Positions 45,061 through 57,174 of a stretch of 64,000 nt of DNA are shown piece after piece. The position numbers and the translations under genes are program-made. The notes below the pieces were generated by a model that did no database searches, was not told where the DNA came from, and saw nothing but the letters and a program-made list of their open reading frames with translations. Each line of letters begins with the position of its first letter. Position 1 is the first letter of the stretch. Source of the stretch: Phycisphaera sp. (GTDB lineage: Bacteria; Planctomycetota; Phycisphaerae; Phycisphaerales; UBA1924); the NCBI GenBank assembly GCA_025916675.1, contig CP098402.1, forward strand, positions 181,205 through 245,204, written 5' to 3'.

Positions 45061-45395
45061 GATTGGGCGTAGGCTCCGAAGGGATGTGTTGGGGTGCGGG
45101 GGGTTCGGTCTTTGGGCTCCCGATAACCCCGTAGTCTGCCAAAGGCCGAGCATAGCCGAATCCGGTGCGGCGGGCCATGCGTACCGGGGTGTGGCCGCCC
45201 ATTGGCGTCGGGAATGCCCAAGTGAATCGGACGGTTGGATTGACATGCGGGCCCGGGTGGCCTCTGATAGAGCAGTCGTGCCGGGGCGCCCCTAAGCGTT
45301 GGCCCCTGGCGGACCGATACCACAGGAAAGCCGATCTTCGCGAGCAGGGCCTCGTCTGGTCCCACGGCGCGTGGATCTTGCGGACGACAGACAAC
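45061..45395. other. 335-bp divergent region between ptsI and rho
   Basis: No gene is supported. It should hold the promoters of ptsI and rho. The rho frame is open through part of it (to 45165), but this stretch has no similarity to Rho that I can see. Confidence 0.5.
45240..45268 (+). promoter_or_regulatory. Putative rho promoter
   Basis: TTGACA (45240-45245), a perfect -35, with a 17-nt spacer to TCTGAT (45263-45268), a 4/6 match to the -10. It would give rho a 5' leader of about 120 nt, room for the autoregulation usual for rho. Confidence 0.45.
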
Positions 45396-46643
45396 ATGAC
45401 CAAATTTTCCGGCCTGGTGGACCAACCACGGCGCGGGGATGTCCGGCTTCGGCCCATTGCGGGCGATACCGTGCAATTCCGCGATGACGACCCGATATTG
45501 CCCCGTTCCATGGTGGATCGGTTCGGGCTGTTGCCCGGGACGATGGTCGAGGTGCGGCTGAGCGATCGCACGGCGAGCGTGGGGCAGAACGGGCAGCAGG
45601 GGCGTGGTCGCGGCCGCAACCAGCGCGGCCGCAAGCCCCAGCGTTCGGGTGGTGGCGTCAAGGCGCCGCTCGCGGATCGATTGTTGTCGATCGAGGGCAT
45701 CGCGCCCGAGGATGCGCCCGAGCCGACGCCGTTCGCCGAGCTGACCACGATCGACCCCAGCCCGCGGATGGCCCTGGAGTACCGCGGTTGTCCGGCGTCG
45801 TGCCGATTGGTCGACATGTTCTGCCCGATCGGCTTCGGCCAGCGCGCGATGGTGGTGAGCCCGCCCAAGGCCGGCAAGACCACGCTGCTGAAGGACATCG
45901 CCACGGGCATCCTGCGGAACCACGACGAGACGGAATTGTTCGTGCTGCTCGTCGATGAGCGGCCCGAAGAGGTGACCGACTTCCGGCGTTCGCTGACCGG
46001 GCACGGGAAGGACGACCCCGACAAGCCCTGGGACAGCTCGCGCGTGACGGTGCTTGCGTCGAGCGCCGACCACGACGCCGAGCGGCACATCCAGGTCGCC
46101 ACGGTGACGATGGAACGGTGCAAGCGCCTGGTGGAGCTTGGCAAGGACGTGGTGATTATTCTGGATTCGCTGACGCGGCTCGGGCGTGCGTTCAATCGCT
46201 CGCGGGAGTATTCGAGCAGCGGGCGGACGCTGAGCGGCGGCATCGACAGCAAGGCGCTGGAGGTGCCTCGCCAGATTTTCGGTGCTGCGAGGCAGACCGA
46301 GGAGGCCGGCTCGCTGACGATCATCGCCACGGCGCTGGTGGATACCGGTGGCCAGGGCGACCAGGTGATCTTCGAGGAGTTCAAGGGCAGCGGCAACATG
46401 GAGCTGATCCTCGACCGCAAGGTGTCCGAGCGGAGGCTGTTCCCGGCGATCAACCTGGCCGCGAGCGGGACCCGCAAGGAAGACCTGCTGATGCCCAAGC
46501 AGGAACTGGAGACGGTGAACGCGCTGCGGCGTCGGCTGCTCTCGATGCCCCCGCCGCAACAGATCGAGCAACTGCTCAACGCGCTCAAGCGATTTGAGAG
46601 CAACGAGGCGTTGATCGGCATGAACCAGGCGAGTTCGGCCTAG
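45396..46643 (+). CDS. rho: Transcription termination factor Rho
   Basis: A 415-residue hexameric RNA helicase. An N-terminal OB-type RNA-binding domain (residues ~5-110) is interrupted by a Gly/Arg/Gln-rich insert at about 67-88 (RGRGRNQRGRKPQRSGGG). The RecA core has Walker A SPPKAGKTTLL (~155-165), LLVDERPEEVTDF, Walker B VVIILDSLTRLGRAFN, and the R-loop region TLSGGIDSKALEVPRQIFGAAR. The helical N-terminal Rho_N segment seems absent. The ATG at 45396 lacks an SD. Two further genes follow closely. Confidence 0.93.
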   Translation: MTKFSGLVDQPRRGDVRLRPIAGDTVQFRDDDPILPRSMVDRFGLLPGTMVEVRLSDRTASVGQNGQQGRGRGRNQRGRKPQRSGGGVKAPLADRLLSIEGIAPEDAPEPTPFAELTTIDPSPRMALEYRGCPASCRLVDMFCPIGFGQRAMVVSPPKAGKTTLLKDIATGILRNHDETELFVLLVDERPEEVTDFRRSLTGHGKDDPDKPWDSSRVTVLASSADHDAERHIQVATVTMERCKRLVELGKDVVIILDSLTRLGRAFNRSREYSSSGRTLSGGIDSKALEVPRQIFGAARQTEEAGSLTIIATALVDTGGQGDQVIFEEFKGSGNMELILDRKVSERRLFPAINLAASGTRKEDLLMPKQELETVNALRRRLLSMPPPQQIEQLLNALKRFESNEALIGMNQASSA

Positions 46644-51273: not shown

Positions 51274-52145
51274 GCGACCACCGCCTGGTTGATGGCAACT
51301 TCGATCGCGTGGTCGATAATCCGTGCTGGGATGTCGACGCCTGTGGTCTCGATGGAGTTGCGGAACTCCATGGTCGAGTTCACCTCGCACACGAGCAGGC
51401 CGCGCTGCGGGCACTCCATGAGGTCGATTGCCAGCAGGCTGTGTTCCGTCCCGCCGACCGCCGAGGCCGCACGCTGGCAGAGATCGTCCAACTCCGGCGA
51501 GACGGGCAGCCCCTCCGCCCGCCCGCCTCGCGCGGTGTTGGTGATCCAGTGCTCGCCGTGGCGCATGATGGCGGCGATGGTCTGTCCGCCGACGACGAAG
51601 GCGCGAATGTCGCGGTCGGGCTTGTTGATCAGTTCCTGGAGGTAGATCACGCCGTGCTGCGGGCCGCCCAGGGCGATCTTGTGTTCGAGGACGGCCTCGA
51701 GCGCGTCGCGATCGTTCAATCGGCCGACCATGCGACCCCACGAGCCCACGCAGGGCTTGATGACCACGGGGTAGCCGAGTTGTTCGGCGGCCTGGACCGC
51801 GCCCTCGTGGCTGAATGCGGCGACCGTGCGCGGTGATGGGACCCCCGCGTCAGTAAGTGCTAGCGTGGTCAGCAACTTGTCGCCGCACGTGTGCGTCACG
51901 GCGGAGGGATTGAGGCAGATCGCCCCACGCGATTCGTATGCGCGGACGATGGCCAGGGCCTTGGTGTGGCTCAGGCAGCGGTCGAGCAGCACGTGCGGCT
52001 CGTCGCTGGGCTCACGCAATGCCGTCAGATCGAGCACCGCCTCGTCGGCGTGGACGAGGTCGACGGCCAAGCCGCGGCGCTCGAATTCGTCGAGCAGCAG
52101 CCGCTCTTCGACGCGGACGCGGGTGTGCAGCAGGGTGATGCGCAT
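51270..52145 (-). CDS. lysX: LysW-substrate ligase LysX (ATP-grasp)
   Basis: A 291-residue ATP-grasp ligase of the RimK group that attaches the alpha-amino group of 2-aminoadipate or glutamate to the C-terminal Glu of LysW. Strong LysX features: GYPVVIKPCVGSWGRM, HWITNTARGGRAEG, and the metal-binding EVNSTMEFRNSIETTGVDIP near the end. I cannot decide between LysX and ArgX specificity by eye. It starts 25 nt after lysW with GAGG upstream. Confidence 0.88.
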   Translation of the reverse strand: MRITLLHTRVRVEERLLLDEFERRGLAVDLVHADEAVLDLTALREPSDEPHVLLDRCLSHTKALAIVRAYESRGAICLNPSAVTHTCGDKLLTTLALTDAGVPSPRTVAAFSHEGAVQAAEQLGYPVVIKPCVGSWGRMVGRLNDRDALEAVLEHKIALGGPQHGVIYLQELINKPDRDIRAFVVGGQTIAAIMRHGEHWITNTARGGRAEGLPVSPELDDLCQRAASAVGGTEHSLLAIDLMECPQRGLLVCEVNSTMEFRNSIETTGVDIPARIIDHAIEVAINQAVVA

Positions 52146-52170
52146 GGGTGTGGTCCTCTTGGCAAGCCGC

Positions 52171-52371
52171 TTACTCGCCCCAGTCTTCCTCGACCTCGGG
52201 AGCCAGCGCCAGGGTGATCGGCTCGACGCTGGTCACCTCGAGCTCGGCCCCGCAATCGGGGCAGCGGACGATCTCGTGGCGTCGGGGTGCCCGGGCGAGC
52301 GTGATGGTCGAGCCGCACTCGGGGCAGGTGGCGGTCAGGGTCTCGGTGCTGGGGGGTGCGATCTGGCTCAT
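52171..52371 (-). CDS. lysW: Amino-group carrier protein LysW
   Basis: A 66-residue carrier protein. CPECG (16-20) and CPDCG (37-41) form a zinc ribbon, an acidic C-terminal half follows, and the protein ends in EDWGE, the signature whose final Glu gamma-carboxylate receives the substrate. Intermediates stay bound to it through LysX, LysZ, LysY and LysK. The ATG at 52371 has AGGAG 8 nt upstream. It lies 50 nt downstream of an intrinsic terminator, so expression of the operon needs read-through or a promoter in between. Confidence 0.92.
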   Translation of the reverse strand: MSQIAPPSTETLTATCPECGSTITLARAPRRHEIVRCPDCGAELEVTSVEPITLALAPEVEEDWGE

Positions 52372-52421
52372 GAGATTGGCTCCTGAGTAATTCCGCGTGT
52401 TGGAAACTGGATGGATACACG

Positions 52422-52452
52422 AAAAAGGCCCGCCGGATGGTTCCGGCGGGCC
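52422..52452 (-). terminator. Strong intrinsic terminator / possible attenuator before lysW
   Basis: On the minus strand GGCCCGCCGGA, a 4-nt loop ACCA and TCCGGCGGGCC form a perfect 11-bp stem, followed by TTTTT (52426-52422). It lies 24 nt after a 31-codon ORF and 50 nt before lysW. The left arm's CGCCGGA could instead pair with TCCGGCG inside the ORF (52506-52500). Confidence 0.85.
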
Positions 52453-52476
52453 TTGCGATTGTGGATGCAAGGGTGT

Positions 52477-52572
52477 TTAGCGGACGCGCACGCGACCGTC
52501 GCCGGAGGGTTTGGTCCCTTTGGCTTTGGCTTTCCCGTTGAGGGTGGTCGTGCTGGCGGTGCGCATGGGCAT
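52477..52572 (-). CDS. 31-codon Lys/Arg-rich ORF, candidate leader peptide
   Basis: An ORF of 31 codons on the minus strand with ATG at 52572 and TAA at 52477-52479. Its middle reads NGKAKAKGTKPSGDG and it ends GRVRVR, with four Lys codons (all AAA) and four Arg codons. AGGAAAG precedes it. It is followed by an intrinsic terminator and then lysW, the arrangement expected for a ribosome-mediated attenuator of a Lys (or Arg) operon. It could instead be an unrelated small basic protein with its own terminator. Confidence 0.5.
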   Translation of the reverse strand: MPMRTASTTTLNGKAKAKGTKPSGDGRVRVR

Positions 52573-52578
52573 TGATGA

Positions 52579-52606
52579 ATCTTTCCTATCGGCGGGTGGG
52601 AGTCAA
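52579..52606 (-). promoter_or_regulatory. Putative promoter of the lysW leader
   Basis: On the minus strand TTGACT (52606-52601), a 16-nt spacer, and AAAGAT (52584-52579), which lies 6 nt before the ATG of the 31-codon ORF. The -35 is good (5/6), the -10 weak (3/6). Confidence 0.4.
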
Positions 52607-52632
52607 GGGGTTGAGCGAATTTGCTGGCGGAG

Positions 52633-54018
52633 CTATGGGCATCCGGCGTCGAAGGCGTTGTGGAAGGCCAGGAAGTCAAAAATGGTGAGTTGGCCGTCAC
52701 CGTCGAAGTCCGCACGGTCGTCGCCGGCGGCGAAGAGGTTCTGGAACTCGAGGAAGTCCGAGAGATTGATAGCGCAGTCGCCGTTCACGTCGGCGGGGCA
52801 GGCCCGGCGCGGTCGCCATCGTGCGATGTAGCCCGGCTGGGTGCCCCCTGGCAGGCCGAGTAGCGTTGGGAAGTCGCCACCCACGTGCAGGGCTGGCCCG
52901 TCGCCCGCGTCGAACACGCCCAGCACGCGGCCGACGGGGTTCGGGGCGTTCTGAAGATCCTGGCCCCGGCCGTCGACAATGCGGCCAACGGCCAGCAATC
53001 GCCCGGTAGGGCTCCGGTAGCGGCCCGAGACGTACAGCTTCTCACCGTCGCCGTCGTCGAATGGCAGGATGTCGGTCACCTGTGAGGCAAGGAAGGTTGA
53101 GAAGTCGATGCCGTCCCATTGCTGGCCGTCCCACCACGCGAAGTTGTAGGCAAAGTTCTCGCCCATTCGCGACATGGTGAAGGAGCCGCCCGCGTACAGC
53201 CGCTCTCCGTCCCCGTCGTCCCACGCGGTTAACGGCCAGACCTGCTCGGTCCAGTACGTCTCGTCGGGCCCGGACAGGCGTGACCATGTCTCTCCATCCC
53301 ATCGCGCCACGCCGGGCACGCGTCGTGCGCCGCCGCTCAGATAGGTCAGCGCCGCGTGCAGGTCGCCCTGGTAGGTCTCCAATCCGATGACGGGCGTGTT
53401 GATGTCGCCGCCGTCGCCCACGGCAGACCATGCCGAGCCATCCCATCGTGCCACACGATTGGCCGCTGCGCCACCCGCCTCAATGAACGATCCCGACGCG
53501 TAGAGGGCTTCGCCCGAGCCATCGTCGTGGGCGTGCAACTCGCTGAGTCGGTCGTTGGTGCCGATGCCGTCCGGCCCGGCCAGTGCCGACCACTCGGCAC
53601 CGTCGAATCGTGCGACGTGGTTGACCAAGAGTCCCGCGGCCATGGTGAATCCACCACCCACGTAGAGGGCGGGGCCCGCGCCGTCATCCCAAACGTACAG
53701 CGTGCGTACGAAGGCGTCTAACTCCGACCCTGGACTGTCTAGCCCCGGCACGGTGTGCCATTGCTCGCCGTCCCAGCGGGCCAAGTAGGGCGAGCGTTGC
53801 CCGCCGGCGGTCACGAAGTCTCCGCCGACGTAGAGCATCGGTCCGTCGCCGCCGTCAAAGGTGGCCATGGCGCGGACGCTGCCGTCGAGACCTTGACCAT
53901 CGGGACCGGTCAACGGCAACCACTCGCCGCATCGTGGTTGGGTTTGGGCCAAGGCCGTGGCAACTGGAATGCAGGAGAGGACGACGGAAAGTATGGCCGA
54001 GGTAGCAAACTTGGGCAC
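52633..54018 (-). CDS. Secreted repeat (beta-propeller-like) protein with GC-type dockerin
   Basis: A 461-residue exoprotein. A signal peptide (about ILSVVLSCIPVATALAQ) is followed by at least five repeats of the form ARWDGxxW preceded by LYVGGxF (for instance LARWDGEQWHTV, VARFDGAEWSAL, VARWDGSAWSAV, VARWDGETWSRL), as in kelch/delta-60-like propellers. The C-terminal 60 residues have two Ca-loop units (DVNGDCAINLSDFLEFQ, DFDGDGQLTIFDFLAFH) and end in DAGCP, with a Cys just before the first loop. The start is GTG at 54018 with AGGAAG 5 nt upstream. Function unknown; possibly adhesion or binding. Confidence 0.75.
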   Translation of the reverse strand: MPKFATSAILSVVLSCIPVATALAQTQPRCGEWLPLTGPDGQGLDGSVRAMATFDGGDGPMLYVGGDFVTAGGQRSPYLARWDGEQWHTVPGLDSPGSELDAFVRTLYVWDDGAGPALYVGGGFTMAAGLLVNHVARFDGAEWSALAGPDGIGTNDRLSELHAHDDGSGEALYASGSFIEAGGAAANRVARWDGSAWSAVGDGGDINTPVIGLETYQGDLHAALTYLSGGARRVPGVARWDGETWSRLSGPDETYWTEQVWPLTAWDDGDGERLYAGGSFTMSRMGENFAYNFAWWDGQQWDGIDFSTFLASQVTDILPFDDGDGEKLYVSGRYRSPTGRLLAVGRIVDGRGQDLQNAPNPVGRVLGVFDAGDGPALHVGGDFPTLLGLPGGTQPGYIARWRPRRACPADVNGDCAINLSDFLEFQNLFAAGDDRADFDGDGQLTIFDFLAFHNAFDAGCP

Positions 54019-54105
54019 GAGGCTTCCTTTGGAGTAAGCTGGTGCTGGGTTTCGGTTCGTGTTGGATTCTGGGTATTGCAACGGCAAGCGATCCTGGTTG
54101 GGATG

Positions 54106-54156: not shown

Positions 54157-56994
54157 TCAGCAGCCGGCGGCGAACTCGTTCTGGAACGCCAGGAAATCGA
54201 AGATGTTCAACTGACCGTCGCCATCGAAGTCGGCGGCCAGGTCGCCGCTGGAGAAGAGGTTCTGGAACTCGAGGAAGTCGAAGATGGTCAGGCTGCCATC
54301 GCCATCGAGGTCGGCGCGGCAGGTCGGGTCGTCGCTGACGATCTGCACGCGGACGTCGTCGATGTACCAGAAGTCGGTGACGTCGCTGCCGGGCGTGGTA
54401 AAACGCACGCGGAAGCCGTCGCCGTAGGCGTCCAGCGGGATGGTGGTCGCGCTGGCGGTGAAGGTGGTCTGGTCGCTGCCATCGGAGACGACCTCGGTGA
54501 GGTCACGCCACTCGCCGTGGAAGCCGCTGTAGTACTCGACGTTCAGGGTCTTGCCCGATTCGACACCACGGTGCTGGCTGTGGAACGCGACCTCGACGGG
54601 CATGTCGGGGATCAGGTCGATCGGCACGTTGATGCGTGACGAGGCCAGCGTGGCATCGTTGAGCATCAGCAGGCTGTACGGCTCGCTGGGCGGGTTCATG
54701 CCCAGCGAGGTGGGCCCGGTGCTGGCCGAAACCTCGATCCACTTCTCGGTGTCCAGGTCGAGGTCGGGGAAGTCGTCCTCGAACGGCAGCTCGAAGGCTG
54801 CGGCCAGGCCATCGGTACCCATGACCACCAGGGCGAAGTCGGCATCGCGGCCGCCGGTCTCGCGGTGACCGTCGACGTTGATGTCGGCGGCGAAAACCTC
54901 GACGGTCCAGGTGCCGGCGTCAGGATTCTGCACGAACACGTTCTCGACGGTGTTGACGGTGTCGGCCGAGCCCCCGGTCGTGCTCCAGATGCCGCCGTTC
55001 AGCCCGCCGTTGCCCCAGTAGACGTCGCCGCTTGGCGAAGTGATCTTGAGGTCGAGGTTGTTGATGCGGTGGACGGTGCTGGAAGTCGTGCCCTGGGGGT
55101 CGGCCCAGGTGAGCGTGGTGCGCAGCTCGGGCGTGCCCGCGGGCACCTTGAGGGGGTAGACCGCGGTCTGCAACTCGGTCAGCACGTCGTCTTCGTTAAC
55201 GATGAAGATCTCATCGCGGCCGTCGTAGAGCGGGCGAAGGTCGGGCATGCCCCAGCCCTGCTTGACGCGGGCCTTGTCGGTGGCGGTGCTCGTGCCGGTG
55301 AAGTTGTACGGGTCGGCCGAGGCGATCATGAGCGCCTTGGCGGTGGTAAACGAGGGGCGCTCATCGAACACGTCGCCGCCCGAGGTCGGGTTGCCGAAGA
55401 CGCCCTCGCTCCACATCTGGAAGAGCACGCCGAAGTGGCCGGAGACGATGGGCGTGGCACCGCTGGTGCCGCCGAATTCCTGGTAGGCGCTCGCGCTCGA
55501 ACTGTGGGCAGCGCGGGTGAAGTCAAAGAAGTGGGTCAGGTCGGGCTTGATGCGTCCGTCGGACGCCGGACCCCGGCTGGCACCGCTGCACCAGCAATCG
55601 TCGGCCTTGGTGATCGTGTTGCGGTGGGCGACGCCGCCGACCGACACGATGTTCTTCGACCACGCTTGCGGGCGAGATTGCTGGCTGCCCTGGTTCGACT
55701 GGCTCTGGGTGATCAGGATGTCCATGTCGAAGATGATGCGGTCCATCTCGCTGCTTGCCGTGGTGTAGGTCGTGGTCAGGCCGCTGCCCCAGCTATTGGT
55801 TTGGTACACGGCGCGGTAGGGCAACGAGGGGTTGATCAGCTGCGCGGTGTGGGCGTAGCGGTTGCCCACGAAGTTGTAGCTGGCGAAGATGCCCTGCGCG
55901 TCGGGCACCATGCCGCGGGCGATGCTCGAAGCGCCGCGGGCGAAATTGATGCTGTAGGTGCCCGTGCCGTGGCTGTCGACACCCGTGCTGCCGTGCAGCA
56001 GCGGGGGCATCGCGGTGAACTCCTGGTGGGTCCGCAGCAGGCCGCTGTCCATGACCTCGCCTCGCACACCCTCGCCCGAGAAGCCGGTGATGCCCTCGAT
56101 GTAGTTGGCCCCACCGATGGAGCGGGCCAGGTTCATGTCGTTCTCGGGGGCCTGCCAGCGGTCGATGAACAGCACGTCGCTGTCGGCGGCGATCGCCAGG
56201 ATCTGGGCGGGGGTGAGCGTGGCTTCCAAGCGGCCGACTTCGGGTACGGTGAGGTTGACGGCCGCGCCCATGTTGGTGACGACCCGGGCCATGCGGTCCA
56301 TGGCGGCGTTGCCGTCGGTGAGCAGTTCGATGGAGTATCGTGCGCCCGTACCAGCGAACGCGCCGCCGAGCACGAGCGGTTGGAGGATCTCTTCTTCGAG
56401 CTTGTACGCGGGCTCGTAGTTGCCCACCCAGCGGACGATGCCCATCGCTTCGATGGCGGCCTTGGCGTCCGGGCCCATGCGCACGATGCGGGCGTGGTCG
56501 TGCAACGCGCGCAGGATGGTCGCGCCGGCGGCCTCGAGCGCGAGGTCGGCGGCCTCAACGGGCTGGCCGATGAATTGCACGATGTACGCGTCGTTGCCCG
56601 GCGCGGCGGCAAGCTGGCCCGGGATGGCGGGCGTGGACTGATCGGGGTCGAACTCGGCATAGCGCAGGCGGATGGTGTCCGCGCTGGGGGCCACGCGCTC
56701 GACGCGCTGGCCCGTAAGCGAGATGGCGGTGTAGCCGACCTCGCCCTGCGCAGTCGCCTCGGTCCACGACATCATGATCGCTTCGCTGCCGGGCACCCGG
56801 GCTTGCTCCAGGTCGAGCACAGCGCCGGCTGCCTGATGGAACGGTTGGCCGTCGAGGGTGAGGGTGGGGTGCTGGCCCGGCTGGGTCTGCAGCGTGACCG
56901 CATCGGCGGGCAGCGCGTCATCGGCCGGTGTCAGCGGAGCGGCAAAGCCCATGGCCAAGCCGCACAAAAGAACGAGTCCCATCTTGGAATGCAT
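54157..56994 (-). CDS. Secreted subtilisin-like (S8) protease with GC-type dockerin
   Basis: A 945-residue exoprotein. A signal peptide (about residues 1-24) and a long N-terminal part (25-300) with a possible inhibitor-like propeptide (AYIVQFIGQPVEAADLAL) precede the S8 core: Asp in GEVMDSGLL (D316), His in VDSHGTGTY (H342), Ser in FGGTSGATP (S511). P-domain/jelly-roll-like beta domains follow (~620-880). The end has two Ca loops (DLDGDGSLTIFDFLEFQ, DFDGDGQLNIFDFLAFQ) and closes with AAGC. The ATG at 56994 has GGGAGG 9 nt upstream. It is the largest of four dockerin-bearing proteins here. Confidence 0.88.
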   Translation of the reverse strand: MHSKMGLVLLCGLAMGFAAPLTPADDALPADAVTLQTQPGQHPTLTLDGQPFHQAAGAVLDLEQARVPGSEAIMMSWTEATAQGEVGYTAISLTGQRVERVAPSADTIRLRYAEFDPDQSTPAIPGQLAAAPGNDAYIVQFIGQPVEAADLALEAAGATILRALHDHARIVRMGPDAKAAIEAMGIVRWVGNYEPAYKLEEEILQPLVLGGAFAGTGARYSIELLTDGNAAMDRMARVVTNMGAAVNLTVPEVGRLEATLTPAQILAIAADSDVLFIDRWQAPENDMNLARSIGGANYIEGITGFSGEGVRGEVMDSGLLRTHQEFTAMPPLLHGSTGVDSHGTGTYSINFARGASSIARGMVPDAQGIFASYNFVGNRYAHTAQLINPSLPYRAVYQTNSWGSGLTTTYTTASSEMDRIIFDMDILITQSQSNQGSQQSRPQAWSKNIVSVGGVAHRNTITKADDCWCSGASRGPASDGRIKPDLTHFFDFTRAAHSSSASAYQEFGGTSGATPIVSGHFGVLFQMWSEGVFGNPTSGGDVFDERPSFTTAKALMIASADPYNFTGTSTATDKARVKQGWGMPDLRPLYDGRDEIFIVNEDDVLTELQTAVYPLKVPAGTPELRTTLTWADPQGTTSSTVHRINNLDLKITSPSGDVYWGNGGLNGGIWSTTGGSADTVNTVENVFVQNPDAGTWTVEVFAADINVDGHRETGGRDADFALVVMGTDGLAAAFELPFEDDFPDLDLDTEKWIEVSASTGPTSLGMNPPSEPYSLLMLNDATLASSRINVPIDLIPDMPVEVAFHSQHRGVESGKTLNVEYYSGFHGEWRDLTEVVSDGSDQTTFTASATTIPLDAYGDGFRVRFTTPGSDVTDFWYIDDVRVQIVSDDPTCRADLDGDGSLTIFDFLEFQNLFSSGDLAADFDGDGQLNIFDFLAFQNEFAAGC

Positions 56995-57174
56995 ATTCTG
57001 AAACCTCCCTAGAATGCCCCCGATACGGGCGTGCCGGCCAACAGTTCTTGCCGGAATTCGGATTTTGGTCCCATATCGATGACAACGCGTGGGCACGGGC
57101 CCCGCCTGTTCAATGTATCGCAAACCCCTATCCGGGCCATGGCCGGGGTGGATTGGGCTTGGGTGTCCTGATGG

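Follow-up and report, generated by a model that had tools for sequence, protein, structure and literature searches.

The 64,000-nucleotide stretch of DNA analyzed here (the window) carries on its minus strand an operon in which profile matches place LysW, LysX, LysZ, ArgC/LysY and LysK together, preceded by a short open reading frame and an intrinsic terminator (Table 1). No lysJ was seen beside lysW-lysX-argC-lysZ-lysK. The leader reading frame, 52572–52477, translates as MPMRTASTTTLNGKAKAKGTKPSGDGRVRVR, with a second ATG at 52566 as an alternative start. Its stop codon is separated by 24 nt (52476–52453) from an 11-bp hairpin, GGCCCGCCGGA/TCCGGCGGGCC, which grows to 13 pairs when the outer A-T pairs are counted and ends in five Ts (52426–52422). 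An earlier note on this DNA had described the same reading frame, gap, hairpin, T run and lysW, and on direct reading its coordinates and anatomy are correct. Upstream, two adjoining minus-strand genes (52633–54087 and 54157–57123) encode proteins that both end in a GC-type dockerin domain (NF041540). Elsewhere in the window, a plus-strand gene at 45165–46640 encodes a Rho protein of 492 aa, which scores above the NF006886 cut-off and below that of TIGR00767 and has ~57 extra residues ahead of the matched part compared with the model.

Table 1 Features of the leader and operon, with positions in the window.
Feature	Position	Strand	Remarks
Probable leader promoter	52606–52578	minus	TTGACT (52606–52601), 17 nt, AAGATT; weak −10
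Leader-peptide ORF	52572–52477	minus	31 codons; read directly from the sequence
Putative Lys control codons, AAA ×4	52533–52531, 52527–52525, 52521–52519, 52512–52510	minus	
Candidate short 1:2 (anti-antiterminator) hairpin	52518–52507	minus	GGG and CCC right after the Lys codons; inferred from sequence
Putative antiterminator strand, core TCCGGCG	52506–52500	minus	
Terminal RVRVR codons	52494–52480	minus	Position argues against control codons
Intrinsic terminator	52454–52422	minus	Stem 52454–52442 / 52437–52425, loop ACCA, T run 52426–52422
CGCCGGA in terminator 5′ arm	52448–52442	minus	Complement of TCCGGCG
lysW	52371–52171	minus	TIGR01206, 74.1 bits (cut-off 53.2); ATG at 52371
lysX	52145–51270	minus	TIGR02144, 320.8 bits (cut-off 275.6)
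argC-type reductase	51266–50233 (start approximate)	minus	TIGR01850, 347 bits (cut-off 233.6)
lysZ	50223–49423	minus	NF010659, 351.3 bits (cut-off 223)
lysK	49411–48332 (start approximate)	minus	NF003367, [LysW]-lysine hydrolase, 407.2 bits (cut-off 363)

A strict terminator scan of both strands between 52100 and 52800 returned three sites, of which the leader's is the longest, where shuffled sequences give 0.5. The 220-nt leader folds with its terminator intact, and its fold surpasses those of 199 of 200 shuffles (z −2.77). The complementarity between TCCGGCG in the reading frame and CGCCGGA in the terminator 5′ arm, which had been flagged as a possible chance match, exceeds that of 98.5% of 200 dinucleotide shuffles (p 0.015). 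No match to any of 4,227 Rfam families was obtained at gathering thresholds in the 64-kb window, and on this ground a lysine riboswitch (L box) and a T-box were both rejected.

Transcription of the leader probably starts very close to its first codon. The promoter suggested in the earlier note holds in part: TTGACT is present as proposed, but AAAGAT (52584–52579) agrees with the −10 consensus at only three of six positions, and no site passed a 9-of-12 promoter scan of 52100–52800. Of 63 relatives of the locus (sampled as described below), 49 have TTGAC in the 70 nt that precede the chosen leader start, with 2.9 expected, and in 21 of those 49 it stands 35–38 nt before the leader ATG, which would place the transcription start on the ATG or beside it. 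Translation of the leader may thus begin almost without a 5′ untranslated region, and the window transcript would probably begin at the leader ATG or a few bases before it. In two relatives (L015 and L050), what appears by eye to be a tRNA gene lies directly before the leader, with no TTGAC in the 60 nt shown.

Relatives of the locus were gathered by searching for LysW in 61 genomes (22 matches, one of which, L022, is not LysW by its motif), in a genome collection from which the best 80 of 467 were taken, and in 397 genomes of the class. Once duplicates sharing the last 150 nt upstream of lysW had been removed, 111 regions remained. Forty-six of these, from Chloroflexota, Bipolaricaulota/Acetothermia, Streptomyces and distant planctomycetes (L062, L133–L137), together with L052, which has 55 nt upstream, were set aside, leaving 65 Phycisphaerales-type regions, whose grouping follows record names, kinship labels and LysW types rather than a tree. 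Several loci are close relatives of one another, and counts over loci are therefore not independent. Reading frames ending within 300 nt before lysW were scanned for Lys, with the same maximizing search applied to dinucleotide shuffles. Some reading frame contained at least three Lys in 12 codons in 62 of the 65 upstream regions (5.4 expected) and at least four in 51 (0.9 expected); the three other regions reach two Lys only. Over the ten codons up to and including the last Lys of the leaders so chosen, Lys accounts for 40%, a figure that owes something to the choice of ORF.

The two RNA elements recur as well. A hairpin followed by Ts comes after the ORF in 63 of the 65 regions, starting a median of 30 nt past the stop codon; by the rule used it is absent in L011 and L014, and the call in L041 looks spurious. 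The putative antiterminator segment lies a median of 10 nt downstream of where the last Lys codon begins, and its pairing with the terminator 5′ arm reaches p ≤ 0.05 against shuffles in 45 of 63 loci (mean z −2.57), with 18 not significant at p 0.05. When dissimilar arms are substituted, a leader's own terminator arm ranks among the best 10% in 43 of 63 and above their mean in 58. The Lys-rich ORF, terminator and alternative pairing, whose conservation the earlier note had proposed to test, are thus all found upstream of lysW in relatives. In an alignment of 29 alignable leaders, none from the genus of the window, 92.3% of antiterminator cells are paired, versus 21–51% when the strands are slid, and four pairs have substitutions in both partners (0 of 500 shuffles); the antiterminator covariation score is not above that of its shuffles (192 of 500). 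For the terminator of the same leaders, 81.3% of cells are paired versus 34–66% when slid, with six double-changed pairs. A further hairpin, GACGC/GCGTC, the counterpart of the candidate 1:2 hairpin of the window, directly follows the Lys codons in these 29 relatives and is 98.6% paired (21–51% when slid), without a double-changed pair or any excess over shuffles; RNAalifold, unaided, picks this hairpin together with the terminator. These leaders therefore carry a predicted antiterminator that would exclude the terminator and that shows compensatory change.

The recurrence and geometry of the Lys codons, the terminator and the alternative pairing can be read from the DNA itself, and they suggest a mechanism that would couple translation, stalling, termination and a response to lysine. 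We propose that 52606–52422 is, very probably, a ribosome-mediated attenuator that reads the charging of Lys-tRNA and controls lysW-lysX-argC-lysZ-lysK. RNA polymerase would start near the leader ATG, followed by a ribosome translating the leader. When charged tRNA-Lys is plentiful, the ribosome would reach the stop codon, the antiterminator strand would be covered or held in the 1:2 hairpin, and the terminator (52454–52425) would form, ending transcription before lysW. When lysine is short, the ribosome would instead stall on the AAA codons, leaving the downstream TCCGGCG free to pair with the emerging 5′ arm of the terminator, and polymerase would read through. Both the attenuator itself and the choice of lysine as the control amino acid appear well supported by the comparisons made here.

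This scheme can be examined by folding the leader with a ribosome placed at each codon, assuming a 15-nt downstream footprint and a terminator 3′ arm that has yet to be made. Over 63 loci, the predicted probability that the terminator 5′ arm is sequestered averages 0.76 for ribosomes at Lys codons and 0.25 for ribosomes at the stop codon; the Lys-stall value is higher by more than 0.3 in 56 of the 63, and the reverse holds in none. Stalls ahead of the Lys codons sequester the arm equally (0.76), so that the codon at which stalling occurs would decide the outcome, and specificity would rest on where ribosomes actually pause.

Lysine leaders also occur in Chloroflexota. Where hcs is found ~4 kb ahead of lysW in Chloroflexales/Herpetosiphon loci, it is preceded by a Lys leader in all 17 (KQxKRxKKP..RSG and KKRSAKK are examples), with a significant antiterminator test in 14 and Lys enrichment in 16. 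In nine other loci, from Ardenticatenaceae, Anaerolineae, Caldilineae and unplaced Chloroflexi, the Lys leader stands before lysW, and antiterminator pairing reaches p 0.05 in five of the eight tested; L078 failed, the wrong hairpin having been picked. The Anaerolineae locus L101 has no Lys leader. One distant planctomycete locus (L062) has a Lys leader (p 0.023), and none was seen before lysW in two Streptomyces loci, four Bipolaricaulota/Acetothermia loci or five other distant planctomycete loci, among them L133, with only 105 nt upstream. Three Chloroflexota loci (L078, L088 and L093) have two successive Lys-rich leader ORFs before lysW, each with a terminator, in what are apparently tandem leader-peptide attenuators.

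Codon usage bears on whether such leaders would sense lysine at all. Runs of Lys can slow ribosomes, and Lys codons could do so independently of lysine supply, through a polybasic chain or hypomodified tRNA-Lys(UUU), in which case the leader would report the speed of translation. This would suit the strong preference for AAA where AAG is usual: the chosen leaders use 253 AAA and 20 AAG codons, versus 36 and 250 in the longest downstream (lysX-region) ORF of the same loci. The Chloroflexota leaders, however, are mostly AAG and have their Lys codons separated by Ser, Arg, Gln or Ala, so that the recurring feature is lysine rather than one RNA word, and the leaders are tied to LysW-pathway operons in two phyla. 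We therefore regard a readout of translation speed as unlikely and a readout of lysine as the better account of the leader.

The earlier note had also given a controlling role to the Arg codons near the end of the leader, such that shortage of either lysine or arginine would relieve termination. The genome of the window does have an ornithine carbamoyltransferase, and RVRVR is found in the window and in four of six congeners, with RARVH in a fifth; but neither occurs in the sixth congener (G002/L011) or in any other listed leader, and thus not in other genera. Arg makes up 0.2% of the ten-codon stretch that closes with the last Lys (63 leaders) and 10.9% of the remainder of the leader ORF. Moreover, the Arg codons come after the antiterminator strand. 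In the window, the predicted probability of a sequestered arm is 0.83 at the first three Lys codons and 0.68 at the fourth, versus 0.14–0.31 across the five RVRVR codons (0.31, 0.31 and 0.15 at the three Arg codons), and it is 0.04 at the stop codon, so that stalling at the terminal Arg codons would favor termination. On the position of these codons and their distribution among leaders, we reject Arg as a co-control amino acid and consider joint control by both amino acids very unlikely.

Two readings without attenuation fare worse. It is exceedingly improbable that the ORF is a gene for a small basic protein with its own role, followed by an ordinary terminator: an ORF with a Lys cluster does occupy this place in all six congeners examined, but by eye the peptide is not conserved beyond the Lys and pairing segments, leader lengths range from 19 to 87 aa under the ORF rule used here, the pairing ties a segment of the ORF to non-coding sequence, and the window peptide, which the earlier note had considered might prove to be a protein found away from lysW, shows no sign of a protein family, with no match in NCBIfam or Pfam. 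It is barely credible that 52454–52425 is a mere terminator of the dockerin gene ending at 52633, with lysW served by its own promoter, since, although the window and, by eye, some congeners have an upstream gene of the same orientation, upstream neighbors vary among relatives while leader and terminator persist (by eye), and promoter-like scores of at least 9 of 12 occur ahead of the leader in 32 of 63 loci and between terminator and lysW in 1 of 62, in stretches of unequal length.

Searches for the element were extended beyond the region upstream of lysW. R1, a covariance model trained on 29 leaders from genera other than that of the window, has the window element (52533–52419, E 0.00095) as its sole match in the 64 kb. 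In the 397 genomes of the class it gives 16 matches, 14 of them just upstream of lysW and one per genome; 13 of these 14 are training sequences, G023 being the one not trained on, so that this search speaks to a single copy more than to new finds. The two remaining matches are weak (E 0.003 and 0.009) and lie in genomes without lysW. R1 gave no match in 17 of the 31 genomes of this type that carry lysW, the window genome among them. A deeper search of 12 genomes gave lysW-linked matches in G030 and G036 (both training sequences) and in G002 (E 0.04), with other matches weak (E 0.05 to 0.6). It again missed the leader of the window genome, and R1 therefore leaves room for extra copies in the genus of the window. 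A separate motif scan, for a short ORF with at least four Lys in 10 codons followed by a terminator, covered both strands of 0.9 Mb from the 111 loci. It gave 41 matches near lysW (32 Phycisphaerales-type and 9 Chloroflexota) and 13 elsewhere. Of the latter, 11 precede hcs by ~0.3 kb, one (L088) is an additional lysW leader and one (L061) is unrelated. Within the limited sensitivity of these searches, then, there is no sign of the element away from LysW-pathway operons.

What the controlled operon makes is less straightforward. These leaders matter in part because most relatives examined have no recognizable first gene of LysW-route lysine synthesis. In a family survey of 37 lysW-bearing genomes (20 + 17) and 17 family genomes without lysW, homocitrate synthase scored above its cut-off in five of the 37 (G012, G271, G296, G302 and G315); in G012, the lysW operon has hcs as its sixth gene (L148:7333–8541), and a sub-threshold match in G030 is a 2-isopropylmalate synthase. 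LysA was above cut-off in three lysW-bearing genomes (G023, G352 and G406) versus six of the 17 without lysW (Fisher p 0.02). Ornithine carbamoyltransferase was above cut-off in 18 of 20 lysW-bearing and 10 of 17 other family genomes, and ArgJ does not separate the two groups (2 of 20 and 4 of 17; Fisher p 0.38). Among the 17 genomes without lysW, four have both LysA and ArgJ (G010, G021, G024 and G035), two have LysA only (G026 and G034) and eleven have neither, which suggests repeated loss of lysine and arginine synthesis.

The genome of the window, a single contig that is 99.97% complete, fits the majority of carriers. It has no LysA over the cut-off, a partial match looking like a biosynthetic arginine decarboxylase, and no homocitrate or isopropylmalate synthase, its sole PF00682 match being an HMG-CoA lyase. 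Nor has it a LeuC-type homoaconitase, the best TIGR02086 match (92 bits) lying in a 978-aa frame of aconitase size. ArgJ was not found there, and an ornithine carbamoyltransferase is clear (343 bits). By its genes, therefore, the organism seems unable to make α-aminoadipate, so that the operon may not make lysine and, as far as seen in the genes surveyed, could feed arginine. The LysX signature was considered as a guide to the product and rejected. LysX of the window has HWITNTARGG, as in Thermus LysX, and the readable loci have HW[I/V/L]TNTA, with SWRTNTA in two Streptomyces loci. HW[I/V/L]TNTA is the form of both Thermus LysX and the bifunctional Thermococcus LysX (the motif is discussed in PMC10433800), and it consequently does not separate lysine from ornithine.

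With homocitrate synthase, a LeuC-type homoaconitase and LysA all unrecognized and ornithine carbamoyltransferase clearly present, a lysine sensor may sit on an ornithine/arginine operon; either the sensor is used in this way, or α-aminoadipate comes from an unseen source. We suggest tentatively, as a reading that is quite possible but somewhat short of probable, that in most Phycisphaerales carriers, the organism of the window among them, which would be incapable of making lysine by gene content, the Lys attenuator controls an operon for ornithine only and hence for arginine. If so, a sensor for one amino acid would have been kept on the pathway of another, and Lys charging would signal how plentiful imported basic amino acids or peptides are. 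More broadly, the presence of a Lys sensor in genomes without homocitrate synthase or LysA raises the question of what their LysW operons produce, and has a bearing on the way in which lysine and arginine branches within the LysW pathway have swapped roles. The attenuator also makes an immediate prediction of the codons and pairings to target by mutation.

Judged by its sequence, the element is a classical Lys-codon attenuator and belongs to a known kind. A literature search covering few subscription journals found no Lys leader-peptide attenuator described for Planctomycetota or Chloroflexota, and the present leaders would add a widespread Lys-type attenuator for these two phyla. The earlier note knew of no such attenuation described for a LysW operon. 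Such an absence is doubtful, as Lys leader-peptide attenuation of the Thermus thermophilus lysine cluster was reportedly described by Tsubouchi et al. in J Biol Chem in 2005. The Thermus leader reportedly likewise has Lys codons in a leader peptide before an α-aminoadipate/LysW cluster; by contrast, the leaders reported here belong to Planctomycetota and Chloroflexota and stand mostly before lysW in genomes without homocitrate synthase. Enterobacterial attenuators combine a short leader ORF, clustered control codons, 1:2, 2:3 and 3:4 helices, and coupling of translation to termination. The leaders studied here are predicted to resemble them in each of these respects, and differ in their putative Lys control codons, in operon and phylum, in having no Rfam match and in a leader ORF that probably starts at the RNA's 5′ end or close to it. 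The trp, his, leu, thr, ilv and phe specificities of the enterobacterial attenuators are named in PMC3766115. Finally, the lysine riboswitch (L box) and the T-box similarly place amino-acid genes under lysine- or tRNA-charging-responsive control, whereas in the attenuator proposed here it is a translated ORF that would carry the specificity.
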